Shown here piece after piece: positions 23,196-30,792 of a DNA stretch of 64,000 nucleotides; positions within the stretch are counted from its first letter, which is position 1; each line of letters begins with the position of its first letter. Where the stretch lies: contig JALHLV010000003.1 in NCBI GenBank assembly GCA_022844405.1, positions 98,846 to 162,845 of the forward strand. The letters are read 5' to 3'. The position numbers and the translations under genes were made by a program. This DNA comes from Sphingomonadales bacterium (GTDB lineage: Bacteria > Pseudomonadota > Alphaproteobacteria > SMXS01). The notes under the pieces are model-generated. The model was given only the letters and a program-made list of their open reading frames with translations, was not told where the DNA came from and did not search any database.

Positions 23196-24005
23196 ATGAG
23201 CCGTTCCGACAAAGTTACGGTCCTCACCCGCACCGGCGCCGCGCTCGCCGATGATGCCGGCATGCTGTCGCAGGACGCGGTCAGACTGCTCGAGGATCTC
23301 TACGCCGCGGCGCGCGACAGCGCGCAAGGCTACCGCGAGGCGGCCGAGTCCGCCAGCAGCGGCGCCATGAAGGCGCGGCTATACGGCATGGCGCGGCGGC
23401 GCAACGCCATGGCCGCCCAACTCGCGCTCACCCTGCGCTCGCTCGGCATCGAGACCGGGCACCATGGCGGCATCGGCGAGCGGCTGCGGCGCCATTTCGA
23501 CGAGTTGAAAAACAAGCTGGAGTCGGGCGACATGCGGGGCGCGGTCACCGGCATCATCCGCGGCGAAGGTGCGTTCATCGAGAGCATCGACAGGGCCTTG
23601 CGCGAAACCCTGCCGGACGCCGTCCACGGCTTCCTCAAGCGCCAGCAGCGCCAGATGAAGGGCGTCGTCGAACGGTTCTCCGACGACATCTCCAGGAGCG
23701 AGAGCCTCAGGGCGCTCAAGCAGCAGGCAATCCAGTACCGCAAGCCGGCCCTGTTCGTCCTCGCCGCCGTCGGCGTCGCGACGCTGGCGGCGGTGCTGAT
23801 CGTCCAGCAGCGCCGCCACGGCACCGTCACGCGCTCGCTCGCCAGCGCTCGCGGCGCCATCGACAAGGCGCTGGCGCGGTTGCCGTCGGCGTCCCGGGTC
23901 CGCAGGTCGCTGCAGGGCCTCCAGATACCGGCGATGCACATGCCGGAGTTCAAGCGGCCGTCGTTCCGCAAATCAGGCCAGGCTGTCGGCCGCGAGCCGG
24001 GCTGA
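23196..24005 (+). CDS. DUF2383/PA2169-like four-helix protein with C-terminal membrane segment
   Basis: The 269-aa protein begins with a ferritin-like helical domain (about 20-160) related to PA2169-type DUF2383 proteins; the diagnostic stretch is LEDLYAAARDSAQGYREAAE. A single hydrophobic segment (about 188-206, PALFVLAAVGVATLAAVLIV) and a basic C-terminal tail follow. The ATG is preceded by CAGGAGG. Such proteins are commonly stress-induced in alphaproteobacteria; the biochemical role is unknown. Its 3' end overlaps the convergent glucokinase gene by 33 bp. Confidence 0.8.
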   Translation: MSRSDKVTVLTRTGAALADDAGMLSQDAVRLLEDLYAAARDSAQGYREAAESASSGAMKARLYGMARRRNAMAAQLALTLRSLGIETGHHGGIGERLRRHFDELKNKLESGDMRGAVTGIIRGEGAFIESIDRALRETLPDAVHGFLKRQQRQMKGVVERFSDDISRSESLRALKQQAIQYRKPALFVLAAVGVATLAAVLIVQQRRHGTVTRSLASARGAIDKALARLPSASRVRRSLQGLQIPAMHMPEFKRPSFRKSGQAVGREPG

Positions 24006-24956
24006 CCCGAACAGTCCGGCATCCGGATCCATCGACACCCTCACAGGCACCGACCGCAGCAGGCCTTCCATGCGGCCCTTGCCCGTGAGGGTGTCGATGA
24101 ATCCGGGCTTTTGCAGCGCCGGCAGGATGGCGGGCGGAATGCCGCCGGCGAAGCACAGCCCACCCACCGCCATGTAGCGCAGCACGGCATTGCCACCCTC
24201 GCGCGCCAGTGCGCCGGTGAACAGCGCCAGCGCCGCGACGCTCAGGCCGCAGCCGCCCTCCAGCGCCCGCCCGGCGATGGCCTCGGGCCGTTTGTCCGGC
24301 GGCAACCCGGCAAGCTCCGCCGGCCAGCGGTGGCGGCCCGACTCCACCAGGAACGCCGCGATGGCGGCGAGCCCCGGCCCGCTGATCACCCGTTCCCAGC
24401 TCACATGCCCGCCATCCGTCCCCGCCAGCCAGGCGCGCAGCTCCGCCTCGACCGCGCCGGCGGCGGCGAAGTCCGCATGGCCGCCTTCCGACGGCATCAC
24501 ACGGTGCCGCGCGCCGTCCCACAGCAGCCCCGCCTCGCCCAGCCCCGTCCCGGGCGCGACCACGGCCATGCTGCCCCGGCCCCAGGGATGCGAACCGCTC
24601 TGCAGCACCACGAAGCCGTCTTCCGGCATATGGGCGACCGCGACCGCGATGGCGGTCAGGTCGTTGACCACGGTCACCGGGCCGATGCCGGCCGACGCGG
24701 TCAGCGCCGCCGCGTCGAGTATCCAGTCCAGGTTGGTCATGCGGCAGACGCCGTTCTCGACCGGGCCGGCGGCGCCAAAGCAGGCCGCCTCGACGGTGGC
24801 CTCGCGCGGACGGCCACAGCGTTCCAGTACATCGGCGATGCCGGCGTAGCCGGCGTTGAGCACGGTGGTTTTCCAGACCGGCGCCAGCGTGCCGCCGGAC
24901 CGCTCGAACAGCCCCAGCCGCGTGCGGGTGCCGCCCACATCGCCAGCCAGAATCAC
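23973..24956 (-). CDS. glk: Glucokinase (ROK-unrelated Glk type)
   Basis: The 327-aa protein phosphorylates glucose with ATP. The N-terminal phosphate-binding motif GDVGGTRTRLGLF, the second motif FGAAGPVENG, the glucose-binding VVNDLTAIAV, the adenosine region VVAPGTGLG, and MPSEGGHADFA all match bacterial Glk (about 320 aa). It lies near a beta-glucosidase (27068-28387) on the same strand, which would release its substrate, although the ABC gene between them runs the other way. Confidence 0.95.
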   Translation of the reverse strand: MILAGDVGGTRTRLGLFERSGGTLAPVWKTTVLNAGYAGIADVLERCGRPREATVEAACFGAAGPVENGVCRMTNLDWILDAAALTASAGIGPVTVVNDLTAIAVAVAHMPEDGFVVLQSGSHPWGRGSMAVVAPGTGLGEAGLLWDGARHRVMPSEGGHADFAAAGAVEAELRAWLAGTDGGHVSWERVISGPGLAAIAAFLVESGRHRWPAELAGLPPDKRPEAIAGRALEGGCGLSVAALALFTGALAREGGNAVLRYMAVGGLCFAGGIPPAILPALQKPGFIDTLTGKGRMEGLLRSVPVRVSMDPDAGLFGSARLAADSLA

Positions 24957-25048: not shown

Positions 25049-26788
25049 ATGACGTCCGGTCCAACATCGACATCCAGAGCGGCCGCCGAAGGCTTCCTGG
25101 GGTGGCTCGCCTTCCTGCGCGCGTTCTGGGTCTTCGCCGGCGGCTGGTGGAGTTCGCGCGAGCGTTGGAAGGCCGTCGTCATGAGCGCGGCACTGGTGAT
25201 GCTGACCGCCATGCAGGTCGGCGTCGCGGTGGCGCTGAACCTCTGGAACCTGCGGTTCTTCGACGCGCTCGAGCAGAAGGCGCTGGACAGTTTTCTCACC
25301 CTGATCGGCGTTTTCATCCTGATCATACTGGCGAACGTGGCGGTTACCATCGCCCATCTCCAGACCAAGCGCCGATTGCAGGCCAACTGGCGGCGCTGGC
25401 TCACGAGGCGGGTCATGCAGGACTGGATGATCGCCGGACGCCACCACACCCTGTCGCTCATGCCCGGCAGGCACGACAACCCGGACGGCCGCATCGCCGA
25501 GGACATCCGCATCGCCACCGAATACGCCGTCGATATCGGCCATTCCGGCCTCTATTCCAGCATCCTGCTGGTCAGCTTCGTCAACATCCTCTGGGGCGTC
25601 TCGGGCACCATCGAGCTGGCGCCGTTCGGCATCGGCCTGTCGATTCCCGGTCATCTGGTCTGGGTCGCGGTCGTCTACACGGTTATTGCCACCTGGATCG
25701 CATTGCGGCTGGGCCGGCCCATGACCCGGGCCGCCAACCGGCGGCAGGCGTCCGAGGCGGACTTCCGCTTCGGTCTTGCCCGCGCGCGCACCCACAGCCT
25801 GGGCATCGCGCTGATGCAGGGTGAGCCCGACGAACGGCGGCGCTTCGTGCGGCTGTTCCACCGCGCTTTCCGGGCGTGGAACCGGCAGACGGCCGCGCTG
25901 CGGCGGTTCTACTACTACATGGCCACCTGGCCGCTGCTGAACCAGATATTCCCGGTGCTGGTGGCGGCGCCGCGCTACATTACCGGCAACATCACCCTCG
26001 GCGTGCTGATGCAGTCGGCCCAGGCGTTCGGCCAGGTCGTCGCCGCCCTGTCCTGGCCGGTGGACAATCTCGCCAAGGCGGCGGAATGGCGCGCCTCGGC
26101 CGAGCGCGCGCGCCAGCTTCACGACGCGCTGCGCGACCTGCGCCGCAACGGCAGCCGGACCGGGCACATCGCGCCCGTCGAGGGCACCAGCGACGCGGTG
26201 GAATTCCGCGGCGTGGTGCTGCGCGACGCCGAGGCCAGGCCGCTCACGGACAGCATCGACCTGACCATCCAGCCCGGCGAGAAGGTCGCCGTAACCGGCG
26301 ACCCCGCCCTTACCGGCAGCCTGTTCCACGCCGCCGCCGGGCTGTGGCCCTGGGGACAGGGGCAGATCCTGCTGCCGGCCGAGGGCATGGTCTATTTCAT
26401 GCCGGAGCGGCCCTATATCCCGCTGGGGCCGCTGCATGACGCCATGTGCTATCCGGAAGCCAAGCACACCTGCGGCGTCGTCAGCATCATCAGCGCCCTG
26501 ACCCGCGCCGGCCTGGTGTCGTGGGTCGATCATCTGGAGCGCTCCGCGGCGTGGGACGAGGTCATGTCGCTCGCCGAGCAGCAGCGACTGGGTTTCGCCC
26601 GGCTCCTGCTGCACCGGCCGGGCTGGGTCGTGCTGCACGACGCCACCTCGGCCCTCGACGCCGACAGCGAGCAGGACATGCTGCGGCTGATCCGGGACGC
26701 CCGTCACGATGCCGCGATCCTGGTGATCGGCGACCGGCCGTCGCTCGGCCCCCAATGCGACCGGACCATCCGGCTGGAGCGGGTTTAG
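25049..26788 (+). CDS. YddA/SbmA-type ABC transporter with degenerate ATPase domain
   Basis: The 579-aa half-size ABC protein has an ABC_membrane_2 (SbmA/BacA-like) domain with about six helices (1-340; RIAEDIRIATEYAVDIGHSG) and a C-terminal nucleotide-binding domain. Canonical catalytic residues are altered: the Walker A region reads GDPALTGSL (417-425), with no GK[ST]; the signature is SLAEQQRL (507-514) for SLGEQQRL; and Walker B is VVLHDATSALD, with His530 and Asp531 for Asp-Glu. It is open and full length, so it is not simply a pseudogene. The ATG at 25049 follows GGAGAAGG. Relatives carry peptides, B12 or bleomycin. Confidence 0.9.
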   Translation: MTSGPTSTSRAAAEGFLGWLAFLRAFWVFAGGWWSSRERWKAVVMSAALVMLTAMQVGVAVALNLWNLRFFDALEQKALDSFLTLIGVFILIILANVAVTIAHLQTKRRLQANWRRWLTRRVMQDWMIAGRHHTLSLMPGRHDNPDGRIAEDIRIATEYAVDIGHSGLYSSILLVSFVNILWGVSGTIELAPFGIGLSIPGHLVWVAVVYTVIATWIALRLGRPMTRAANRRQASEADFRFGLARARTHSLGIALMQGEPDERRRFVRLFHRAFRAWNRQTAALRRFYYYMATWPLLNQIFPVLVAAPRYITGNITLGVLMQSAQAFGQVVAALSWPVDNLAKAAEWRASAERARQLHDALRDLRRNGSRTGHIAPVEGTSDAVEFRGVVLRDAEARPLTDSIDLTIQPGEKVAVTGDPALTGSLFHAAAGLWPWGQGQILLPAEGMVYFMPERPYIPLGPLHDAMCYPEAKHTCGVVSIISALTRAGLVSWVDHLERSAAWDEVMSLAEQQRLGFARLLLHRPGWVVLHDATSALDADSEQDMLRLIRDARHDAAILVIGDRPSLGPQCDRTIRLERV

Positions 26789-27067: not shown

Positions 27068-28387
27068 CTAGACCGGAAACCTGCCGGTGCGCGCCAGCGC
27101 GCCGTACCAGCGCGCCGAGGTCTTGGGCGTGCGTTCCAGCGTCGCGAAATCCACCTGGATGACGCCGAACCGCGTGGTGTAGCCCGAGCCCCATTCGAAA
27201 TTGTCGAGCAGCGACCAGACGAAATAGCCGCGCACGTCGGCGCCCTGCTCCATGGCCTGGCGCATGGATTTGACGTACTCGGCGAGGAACAGCACCCGCC
27301 CGGTGTCGTCGACGGCGCCGTTGGGATCGCCGCAGCCGTTTTCGGTCACGTAGACCGGCAGGCCGTAGCGCCGCGATACGCCGAGCAGCGTCTCGCGGAA
27401 CGCATCCGGATGGATCGTCCAGCCGATGTCGACCGAGGGTACGTCCGCCCGCACGCTGCCCCAGCCGTAACCCCAGGTCGTGTCCGGGTCGGCCCTGGCG
27501 AAGATCGGGCCGTAATGATTCAGCCCGAACCAGTCAAGTCCCTGGCGGATGCGCGCCATGTCGCCGGGCTGGACGTAGGGTGCGATGGCCAGCGCGGTCA
27601 GCGGCGGATAGCGGCCCAGCCCCTGGGGGTCGGCGAACGCCAGGTTCCAGTGCTCGTCGAGCAGCGCCGCCGCCGCGGCGGTTTCGGGCGCGTCGTCTTC
27701 CGGGATCACCGGCTGGATGTTGTGGATCGCACCGACCTGCGCGTCCTTCACCGCACCGCGCAGCACCGCGACGGCGTCGCCATGGGCCAGGTTGACGTGG
27801 TGGATCGCCTTCAGGTGCGCCGTGCGGTCGGTGATGCCCGGCGCCGCCCAGTCGATGGCATAGCCGAACATGGTGAACACGTTGAATTCGTTGAAGGTCG
27901 CCCAGCGCTTCACGCGGTCGCCGTAGCGATGGGCGACCAGCGCGGCGTAGTCGGCGAACCAGCCGGCGCTGTCGCGCGAGGTCCAGCCGCCCAGGTCTTC
28001 GAGCGCCTGCGGCAGGTCCCAGTGATAGAGGCACAGCCACGGCTCGATCCCCGCGCCCAGCACGCCGTCGATCAGCCGGTCGTAGAAATCCAGGCCCTTT
28101 TCGTTGACCGCGCCCTGTCCGGCCGGCAGCACCCGCGGCCAGGACACCGAGAACCGGTAGGCGCCGATGCCCATCTCCGTCATCAGGCCGATGTCTTCGG
28201 CCCAGCGGTGATAATGGTCGCAGGCCACGTCACCCGAGCTGCCGTCGGCGACCTTGCCCGGGATCAGGCAGCGCCTGTCCCAGATGCTGGGTCCGCGCCC
28301 GTCCTCGCGGGCCGCGCCTTCGATCTGGTAGGCGGACGTCGACGCGCCCCAGAGGAACGACGCGGGGAAATCGGGTTGCGCGCTCAT
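27068..28387 (-). CDS. bgl: Beta-glucosidase, glycoside hydrolase family 1
   Basis: The 439-aa cytoplasmic enzyme shows GH1 hallmarks: the N-terminal FPASFLWGASTSAYQIEG, the acid/base motif TFNEFN (Glu near residue 167), and the nucleophile motif VTENGCGD (Glu near 349), plus a final WSLLDNFEWGSGYTTRFG. It hydrolyses beta-linked glucosides to glucose, which the nearby glucokinase would phosphorylate. The ATG at 28387 follows AAAGGGG. No signal peptide is seen. It is bounded by the two intergenic repeat copies. Confidence 0.95.
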   Translation of the reverse strand: MSAQPDFPASFLWGASTSAYQIEGAAREDGRGPSIWDRRCLIPGKVADGSSGDVACDHYHRWAEDIGLMTEMGIGAYRFSVSWPRVLPAGQGAVNEKGLDFYDRLIDGVLGAGIEPWLCLYHWDLPQALEDLGGWTSRDSAGWFADYAALVAHRYGDRVKRWATFNEFNVFTMFGYAIDWAAPGITDRTAHLKAIHHVNLAHGDAVAVLRGAVKDAQVGAIHNIQPVIPEDDAPETAAAAALLDEHWNLAFADPQGLGRYPPLTALAIAPYVQPGDMARIRQGLDWFGLNHYGPIFARADPDTTWGYGWGSVRADVPSVDIGWTIHPDAFRETLLGVSRRYGLPVYVTENGCGDPNGAVDDTGRVLFLAEYVKSMRQAMEQGADVRGYFVWSLLDNFEWGSGYTTRFGVIQVDFATLERTPKTSARWYGALARTGRFPV

Positions 28388-28454
28388 CTGTGCCCCTTTG
28401 GCCGGACGATCCATCCTAACAACGATCGCTGCTGTGCGGAAACCTGGTGGTGCG

Positions 28455-28584
28455 AACCGCTTCGCGGTCCCCCTCACCCCAACTCTCTCCCCGGTGGGGC
28501 GAGGGGATTTGGCTGGTGCGACTGAAACATAAACCCTTCTCCCCGCCCGGGGAGAAGGTGGCGCGGAGCGCCGGATGAGGGGCG
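28455..28584 (+). repeat. Intergenic repeat, copy B
   Basis: This shares both ends and the CCTTCTCCCCGCC/GGGGAGAAGG hairpin with copy A at 26841-27017, in the same orientation. It lies between the beta-glucosidase start and the sulfotransferase stop. Confidence 0.8.
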
Positions 28585-28594
28585 CCGCGGCGCG

Positions 28595-30727
28595 TTACCG
28601 GTCCAGTGCCGCCAGCCGGTCGATCAGCGGCTGGACCGCGTCGCCGTACTTTTTCCAGCGGTCCACCGACCTGGTATAGATCGGCTCGCGGACCTGGGTG
28701 ACGCTGGCGGTCTTGACCGGCCGCTTGGCGTCGTAGAACGCCAGGCAGCGGTCTTCCCAGGGCAGGCCGATGAACTCGAGCAGCTCGCGGGCCTTGCCTT
28801 CCGTGTCGGCGACCAGCTCCTCGTATTTCAGCTCGTGGAACGATCCCTCGGGCAGCACCGAACGCCAGTGATCCATCAGCCCGGCATATTTCGCATAGTA
28901 GTCGGCGAGATCGTCGAAATCGTAGGAATAGGGCAGGTCCTCGCGGAACAGGCGGGTGAAGCACGAGATGCAGTTGTCGACCGGATTGCGCCTGATATGA
29001 ATGATTTTGGCGTTCGGCATGATGACGTTGATCAGGCCGATATAGAAGAAGTTGGTCAGCATCTTGTCGGTGAAGTAGGGCGTGCTGCCGCCCCAGTTGG
29101 GCACGTCGCGCAGATAGCCCGAGACGATCGCGTCCGCGTGCTTTTGCGACACGAACTGGAACACTTCGGGGAACCGGACCGACTCGCTGAAGTCCTTGAC
29201 GATGGTTTCGGTCATGCTCTGGTTCAGCGTGCGCACCTCGCCGGCGCCGAACACCTGCGAATGGCTGGAGATGATCTGCTCGGTCAGCGTGCTGCCGGAC
29301 CGGGGCATGCCCAGCACCAGGATCGGCGCGCGGGTGTCCGATCCCTTGATCAGCGCGCGCTTGGCGTCGAGCGCCTCGCGGGTGAACACCTCCCGGATGC
29401 GGTCGAACAGGTACAGGCTGGCCTGCTTGTTGTAGTTCAGCTCCGCGCGCTTGAGCTTTGCCCCGGCCATGAACGCCGTCATGGCCTGCCGGCTTTCGCC
29501 GACATCGTCGTAAACCTTGCCCAGCGCGTAATAGACGCCGATCTTTTCGTGGTCCGACAGGGTGTCGATACCCTTCGACGCCGCGATGAAGTTCTTGTAG
29601 TGGGTTTCCGTCTTGGTGAATTTCTTGGCGTTGGCCAGGTTGGTATAGACCCGTAGCGCCTCGGGCGCGATGGCGATGGCCTTCTCGAAACAGGCGCGCG
29701 CCTCGTCCAATTCGCCCAGCTCCATGTGCGAAACGCCGAGCTGGTTGAGCAGCTCGGCCGAGTCCGGCTGGGCCTCGAGCGCCTTGCGGAACCAGTCGAT
29801 GGCTTCCGCGGTCTGCCCCATCTCGCGTTTCACCCGGCCCATCAGCGCCAGCGTCCGGTGATCGGCGCCATCGAGCGCCAGCGCCTGCTCGGCCGCCGCC
29901 AGGGCGCCGTTGAGCTTGTGATCTTCCTGCAGCAGCTGGGACAGCAGGATCAACGGCTCCACCCTGGTGGGATACATGGTGGTCATGCGCGACAGCAGGG
30001 TCAGCGCGTAGTTGCCGTTGCCCTGGGCGTGCGAGGCCGACGCGATGCCGGTCAGCGCCTCCATGTAGTCCGGCCGGATGTCGCTGGCCCGCCGGAACAG
30101 CTTCTCGGCGACATCGTACTGCCGCTGCGCCATATGGGCCTTGCCGGCATTGGCCAGCGCCTCGACATAGGTGGGCCGCAGCTCGATCGCCCGTTCGTAG
30201 CAGCGCAGGCTGGCCTCGGAATTCTCCCGCACCCGGTACAGGTTGCCCAGATTGTTGTGGGCCTCGGCGAAATCCGGCTTCAGCTTCAGGGCGTGCCGGT
30301 AGGCCGCTTCCGCCGCGTCGAGTTCCGAGCGCTCGAACTGGACGATGCCCAGATTGTTCCGGGCGTCCGGATAGTTGGGCGCAAGGGCGACCGCCTTCAA
30401 TCCGTGCTCGACCGCGCGGTCGAGGTTGCCGGCCTGGCGGTACATCTCGCACAGATTGCTGTGAAACACCGGCAGGTTCGGGTCGGCGGTGATGGCCTTT
30501 TCCAGGACGTCGATGGCGTCGGTCAGCCGCCCGAGCCGGTGCAGCACGAACGCGCGCATGGCGATGGTATTGGCGTCGTTGGGGAACTGGTCGATGAGCT
30601 GCGCGGACAACGAGTCGGCGGCAGGAAGCTTTCCCTGGTTGGCGAGGTTGATGGCGAGGGCGACGGCGTCCTCGCGCTTGAGCCGCTTCTTTGTCTGCTG
30701 GTTCTGTTCCAAAGTCGATTCCTGCAT
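28595..30727 (-). CDS. TPR-repeat sulfotransferase
   Basis: The 710-aa protein joins about twelve N-terminal TPR units (about 15-400; DARNNLGIVQFERSELDAAE and AEAHNNLGNLYRVRENSEAS are typical) to a sulfotransferase domain (about 465-700). The PAPS 5'-phosphosulfate loop is GMPRSGSTLTEQII, and the 3'-phosphate site is IIHIRRNPVDNCISCF. Such proteins transfer sulfate from PAPS to protein tyrosines, carbohydrates or small molecules. It lies directly downstream of and codirectional with the giant autotransporter, separated by a terminator. ATG 30727 is chosen though its ribosome site is weak. Confidence 0.93.
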   Translation of the reverse strand: MQESTLEQNQQTKKRLKREDAVALAINLANQGKLPAADSLSAQLIDQFPNDANTIAMRAFVLHRLGRLTDAIDVLEKAITADPNLPVFHSNLCEMYRQAGNLDRAVEHGLKAVALAPNYPDARNNLGIVQFERSELDAAEAAYRHALKLKPDFAEAHNNLGNLYRVRENSEASLRCYERAIELRPTYVEALANAGKAHMAQRQYDVAEKLFRRASDIRPDYMEALTGIASASHAQGNGNYALTLLSRMTTMYPTRVEPLILLSQLLQEDHKLNGALAAAEQALALDGADHRTLALMGRVKREMGQTAEAIDWFRKALEAQPDSAELLNQLGVSHMELGELDEARACFEKAIAIAPEALRVYTNLANAKKFTKTETHYKNFIAASKGIDTLSDHEKIGVYYALGKVYDDVGESRQAMTAFMAGAKLKRAELNYNKQASLYLFDRIREVFTREALDAKRALIKGSDTRAPILVLGMPRSGSTLTEQIISSHSQVFGAGEVRTLNQSMTETIVKDFSESVRFPEVFQFVSQKHADAIVSGYLRDVPNWGGSTPYFTDKMLTNFFYIGLINVIMPNAKIIHIRRNPVDNCISCFTRLFREDLPYSYDFDDLADYYAKYAGLMDHWRSVLPEGSFHELKYEELVADTEGKARELLEFIGLPWEDRCLAFYDAKRPVKTASVTQVREPIYTRSVDRWKKYGDAVQPLIDRLAALDR

Positions 30728-30792
30728 CCGGTAAAACCGTGGGGCTCGCCTGGCCGGCACTCGGCGCACCTCATGACCGCTTCAAACAAAGA

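Follow-up and report, generated by a model that had tools for sequence, protein, structure and literature searches.

An alphaproteobacterial clade of YddA/BclA-type half-transporters with a degenerate nucleotide-binding domain and a linked beta-glucosidase gene

The 64,000-nucleotide stretch of DNA analysed here (the window) carries, at 25049..26788 on the forward strand, the gene of a pseudo-ABC half-transporter, in which a membrane domain is fused to a nucleotide-binding domain (NBD) whose ATPase motifs are altered. This raises the question of whether the protein can still use ATP and, if it cannot, what it transports and what moves the substrate across the membrane.

Gene, motif losses and phylogenetic extent

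The open frame comprises 579 residues (coding positions 25049-26785, followed by a stop), as a sequence-only reading of the window had stated, and orthologues of the same genus share 88, 71, 62 and 62% identity with its product. The membrane domain, residues 39-357 (25163..26119, forward strand), matches Pfam PF06472 (ABC_membrane_2) over residues 39-299 with 114.7 bits (cut-off 24.4) and PF05992 (SbmA_BacA) over residues 40-357 with 89.2 bits (cut-off 24), the latter score being lower and not discriminating. PF00005 (ABC_tran) gave no match to the protein at E 1e-3 in the Pfam search. We consider the NBD to be still present, since residues 76-567, nearly the full length, match the solved ABC transporter Rv1819c (6tqe), the mycobacterial BacA, with E 6e-61, and no solved relative is closer by sequence; the degenerate domain occupies residues 383-574 (26195..26770, forward strand), and the end-to-end alignment of the protein with intact relatives points to its ABC descent. 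Judged by its sequence, the protein is by descent a YddA/BclA-type (PF06472) ABC half-transporter, and one without the sequence hallmarks that define a working ABC ATPase.

The alignment places each of the former ATPase motifs on the forward strand. The former Walker A, residues 417-425 (26297..26323), reads GDPALT-GSL; the former ABC signature, MSLAEQQR (26564..26587), has Ala509 in place of its second Gly and retains the QR; and in the former Walker B, WVVLHD (26624..26641), the Asp has become His530 and the catalytic Glu has become Asp531. These residues had been read correctly from the sequence (GDPALTGSL, A509 in SLAEQQR, H530 and D531), and the alignment adds three further losses: the P-loop lacks one residue, precisely that of the Lys column, the Q-loop Gln is replaced by Glu453 (26405..26407), and the H-switch His by Asp562 (26732..26734). 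Chance and sequencing error are excluded as causes of these changes, because every orthologue examined shows them. The NBD is almost certainly catalytically dead.

Relatives were gathered from close relatives of the window genome, from its order, class and phylum, and from selected other orders; a single scan of genome contigs returned only one relative. The collection contains 59 proteins without GK[ST], distributed over several alphaproteobacterial families and including those of most Azospirillum genomes; 12 come from the first alignment, 25 from Azospirillum (L098-L122), 4 are L176-L179 and 18 are L187-L204, while L186 repeats L008 and stands outside the count. In the first-aligned set of 37 dead proteins, the Lys column is empty throughout and the Walker B Asp is never kept; the signature second Gly survives in one protein (gone in 36) and the catalytic Glu in three (gone in 34), the Q-loop Gln is gone in 32 and the H-switch His in 15. 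GK[ST] is likewise absent from the 4 and 18 dead proteins found later. By comparison, the Lys, the signature second Gly and the Walker B Asp are retained in 65/65 intact relatives, and GK[ST] in six further ones, bringing the aligned intact proteins that keep it to 71/71. Alignment with the YddA and SbmA families, which had been suggested as a check on the motif losses, thus revealed a clade that shares the substitutions. One of its members (G417:C6:186663-188345) has coordinates identical to those of the match in the Azospirillum sp. B510 plasmid NC_013859.1, strain B510 having the orthologue AZL_RS30820, and public plasmid records carry the annotation 'ABC transporter ATP-binding protein/permease'.

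Trees were built on the membrane domain alone, that is, without the ATPase columns in question. A quick tree united the 12 dead proteins of the first alignment in one clade, requiring one change, and a careful tree recovered 9 of the 12 as one clade with support 98/93. The dead clade is nested among intact alphaproteobacterial YddA/BclA members, the nearest being L038/L039, and a search at E 1e-110 of 398 genomes sampled from the phylum found no member outside the class. The sisters L081, L086, L091 and L093 have an intact P-loop, but their H-switch, Q-loop or signature is altered, as if the constraint on the ATPase were loosening in the wider group around the dead clade.

The beta-glucosidase and glucokinase genes beside the transporter

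A GH1 beta-glucosidase gene lies at 27068..28477 on the reverse strand, convergent with the transporter gene and not in one operon with it (PF00232; NCBIfam TIGR03356, 559.6 bits, cut-off 478.5). It is the single GH1 copy of the genome, and its conserved part starts near 28387. Because its catalytic motifs TFNE and TENG are intact and no signal peptide is evident at its N-terminus, its substrate must be imported. On the other side of the transporter, and divergent from it, is a glucokinase gene (23973..24956, reverse strand; PF02685, 281 bits), so that the transporter sits between the two. The glucokinase is found beside the transporter at 3/4 same-genus orthologue loci, and in the distant member L177 a glucokinase-like gene lies between GH1 and the transporter. 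A TPR-sulfotransferase fusion gene (28595-30769) follows GH1 in the window and stays there throughout the genus; in other families no such neighbour of the transporter was found.

A GH1 gene is present at 59/59 dead loci, adjacent or within about 5 kb. The distance is within about 1 kb at 42 of them, L177 included, and 2-5 kb at the remaining 17, where in one case the pair is split by the transporter's own tandem duplicate and in the 16 genomes of the A. brasilense group other genes intervene, leaving 2.2-5 kb to the nearest GH1. By contrast, GH1 was found at none of 41 intact loci (40 viewed with flanks of about 4 kb in both directions, which contig ends shortened in a few cases, plus L205) and at none of six further intact loci, L180-L185, with 1.5 kb flanks. 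The loci L176-L185 were found after the pattern had been noticed, and they fit it, with four dead proteins accompanied by GH1 and six intact ones without it. The A. brasilense group region (L124, L187-L202) holds mostly two or three GH1 genes, of two subtypes, and the annotated record L124 also shows a glycosyltransferase, a TPR protein and a radical SAM protein there.

This count does not represent 59 independent events, since all dead members form one clade, and the linkage could in part be inherited synteny. We argue nevertheless for a maintained link, because lineages differ in gene orientation, in spacing and in GH1 subtype: the two genes are convergent in the window genus, G051, G223 and G387 and in tandem in most Azospirillum, G101 and G189, and the two GH1 subtypes found beside dead transporters are about 46% identical. 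The other neighbours of the dead loci vary and are unrelated (MutL, NAPRTase, GARS, YceI and a kinase). Within the window genus the sole GH1 gene adjoins the sole transporter gene, and the relatives G001, G007, G008 and G009 have neither.

Substrate, direction and energy of transport

The substrate is probably related to beta-glucosides, and we give slightly better than an even chance to the protein being an ATP-free carrier of such compounds, a reading with which proton-driven transport overlaps. The carrier would reside in the inner membrane, would derive from a YddA/BclA-type ABC transporter and would no longer hydrolyse ATP. Two identical half-transporters would make the pore, with the dead NBDs presumably acting as a cytoplasmic scaffold that keeps the dimer together. 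Beta-glucosides, whether cello-oligosaccharides or plant aryl/flavonoid glucosides, would enter by alternating access; inside, GH1 would free glucose and glucokinase would trap it as glucose-6-phosphate. Hydrolysis and phosphorylation would keep uptake downhill, so that the transporter itself would need no ATP, and polar residues in the membrane domain may provide a path for a co-transported proton. We favour this sink-driven carrier, with proton coupling as the main rival, because the GH1 substrate must enter the cell, the genome offers no intact family partner, and related transporters provide precedents. Mycobacterial BacA has a large hydrophilic cavity and moves varied hydrophilic solutes in both directions in an ATP-driven manner, cobalamin being both imported and exported in the manner of an equilibrating carrier, termed 'ATP-driven diffusion', and a TAP D-loop mutant behaves as an ATP-uncoupled facilitator (PMC10960864).

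In the rival reading, a proton symporter like SbmA/BacA, the gradient acting through protonatable membrane-domain residues replaces ATP. We regard this as possible, though less than an even chance. Its support comes from protonatable residues of the membrane domain. There, His103 (25355..25357, forward strand), Tyr169 and Pro337 (26057..26059, forward strand) are specific to the dead clade and occur in 41/41 aligned dead proteins, with His165, also specific to the clade, in 35/41; His103 is absent from every aligned intact relative, and Pro337 is next to W336, which aligns with the SbmA gate residue Y368. E151, E158, D162, H165 and Y169, with a spacing of 7/4/3/4 (25499..25555, forward strand), form a polar stripe that we infer to lie on one helix face. 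Across the eight protonatable positions 103, 151, 158, 162, 165, 236, 339 and 346, dead proteins have D, E or H at 7-8 and intact ones at 2-6. These residue positions rest on the alignment only; an AlphaFold model computed from two sequences had a pLDDT of 35 and was discarded. E158, D162 and D339 hardly vary among the dead proteins. However, the closest intact sisters often have acidic residues at these three positions already, so that these did not arise with the loss of the ATPase; a joint gain of acidic residues with that loss was therefore rejected. The polar residues could carry protons, but the same residue types would also suit sugar binding.

The comparison with SbmA itself yields a partial match. 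Of the strict glutamate ladder (E193, E203, E269, E276, E287 and E378), 3/6 positions are matched, E151, E236 and E346 corresponding to E193, E276 and E378, whereas V161, A229 and R247 stand at E203, E269 and E287. In this alignment E. coli YddA has the same three glutamates, and it has been described with an incomplete ladder; the loss of a single ladder glutamate impairs SbmA (PMC13316013). A common clade with SbmA is rejected by the AU test (p = 0.0003), with the caveat that the SbmA branch is long. With half of the ladder, a retained NBD and this tree result, membership in the SbmA/BacA (SLiPT) family was rejected. The sequence-only reading had proposed a 'pseudo-ABC' working by proton drive like SbmA/BacA; the dead NBD and its retention by selection hold, while the proposed likeness in energy source is no more than possible. 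A carrier drawing on the sink that the adjacent beta-glucosidase provides accounts for the data no less well, and between downhill, sink-driven movement and proton drive the balance appears about even.

The linkage to GH1 might instead mark an exporter, for example of a hydrolysis product, or a sensor that reports the presence of substrate through the dead NBD. A relative of the same fold runs both ways (PMC10960864), and the NBD has been kept although it lacks the ATPase residues; however, a cytoplasmic GH1 with a glucokinase requires an import route, and no regulator is constantly linked, so we consider this reading unlikely. Still less probable is a heterodimer of the dead half and an intact half-transporter, with one working site between them, as in heterodimeric exporters. 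Intact paralogues do occur in some lineages (G051, G059, G101 and G189), but a search of the window genome with PF06472 and PF05992 returned one protein each, which are the same gene; with no second family member there, ATP supplied through an intact family partner is improbable.

Homology of both membrane domain and NBD extends to the ABCD family (ABCD1, ABCD4), whose members are ATP-using transporters of eukaryotic organelles. The closest likeness is to the YddA/BclA type, with which the dead clade shares the PF06472 membrane domain and NBD architecture, full-length homology and its nesting in the tree, and from which it differs in lacking the ATPase residues and in its constant GH1 neighbour; BclA transport requires ATP hydrolysis (PMC12003926). 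With SbmA/BacA it has in common a related membrane domain, the absence of a usable ATPase and the three ladder glutamates, but it keeps the NBD, lacks equivalents of E203, E269 and E287 and is linked to a beta-glucosidase.

Selection on the retained domain and its implications

Against the 88% orthologue, dN/dS is 0.094 for the membrane domain and 0.148 for the NBD, and in 299 pairs within Azospirillum the medians are 0.23 and 0.42, values obtained by a simple counting method at high synonymous divergence. The ratio of NBD to membrane-domain dN is about 1.6 in the Azospirillum pairs vs 1.16 in intact relatives. We therefore regard the NBD as relaxed but still constrained, and the value of 0.148 relative to the nearest relative, the outcome of the dN/dS check proposed for the NBD, indicates purifying selection. 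In 37 dead proteins 24 NBD positions are invariant, among them W433, W435, G436, G438, Q512, R513, L514, F516, A517 and R518, which we take to serve the structure and not the binding of ATP. The protein is very probably a retained, functional carrier.

An NBD with a new mode of binding a nucleotide, or some other ligand, for regulation or energy would fit the conservation of the signature QR, the D-loop Asp and W433, W435, G436 and G438, but it is improbable given that the P-loop is shortened and its Lys lost in every aligned member and the Walker B Asp lost in 37/37. Recent inactivation of a gene heading for loss could account for the faster NBD, but it is refuted by the occurrence of the same loss in several families, with full-length open frames, dN/dS well below 1 and the invariant NBD residues, and is given practically no weight. 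Intact relatives with recent decay of this copy, or a sequencing error, had been named as outcomes that would undo the pseudo-ABC proposal, and both are excluded by the clade-wide losses and by purifying selection.

The sequence data argue that the dead clade is a loss of ATPase separate from that of the SbmA family, with the NBD kept. A 2026 study proposed a YddA-like ABC transporter as the ancestor of the proton-driven SbmA family, which would have emerged through loss of the NBD, and took split TMD/NBD genes as hints (PMC13316013). We see an even chance that an ABC pump of the family has here been converted, a second time and independently, to an ATP-free carrier, with the dead NBD still attached and conserved: the kind of intermediate missing from the proposed YddA-to-SbmA transition, specialised for beta-glucosides and relying on coupling to a cytoplasmic beta-glucosidase rather than on ATP. 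We found no report of a bacterial ABC clade in which all NBDs have lost catalysis, or of the GH1 link, in the open-access literature searched. The lineage, with ATPase residues gone and the NBD retained under selection, has cultivable members (Azospirillum), so that it becomes directly testable whether ATP use can disappear ahead of the domain and which energy source then takes over; it may show a route from an ATP pump to a gradient-driven carrier. Beta-glucosides would offer a substrate lead for a family whose function has been called unknown, and it is very likely that many proteins with the annotation 'ABC transporter ATP-binding protein/permease' are unable to use ATP.

Two further observations concern individual members. 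In G387 (L133 9117-13744), two tandem dead-NBD transporters stand beside one GH1 gene, and the two halves could form a heterodimer. The 88% orthologue, L032 (CALQFM020000002.1, 5001-6737), comes from a public MAG that bears the planctomycete name 'Candidatus Kuenenia stuttgartiensis'; the window's genus is alphaproteobacterial, and this label looks wrong.
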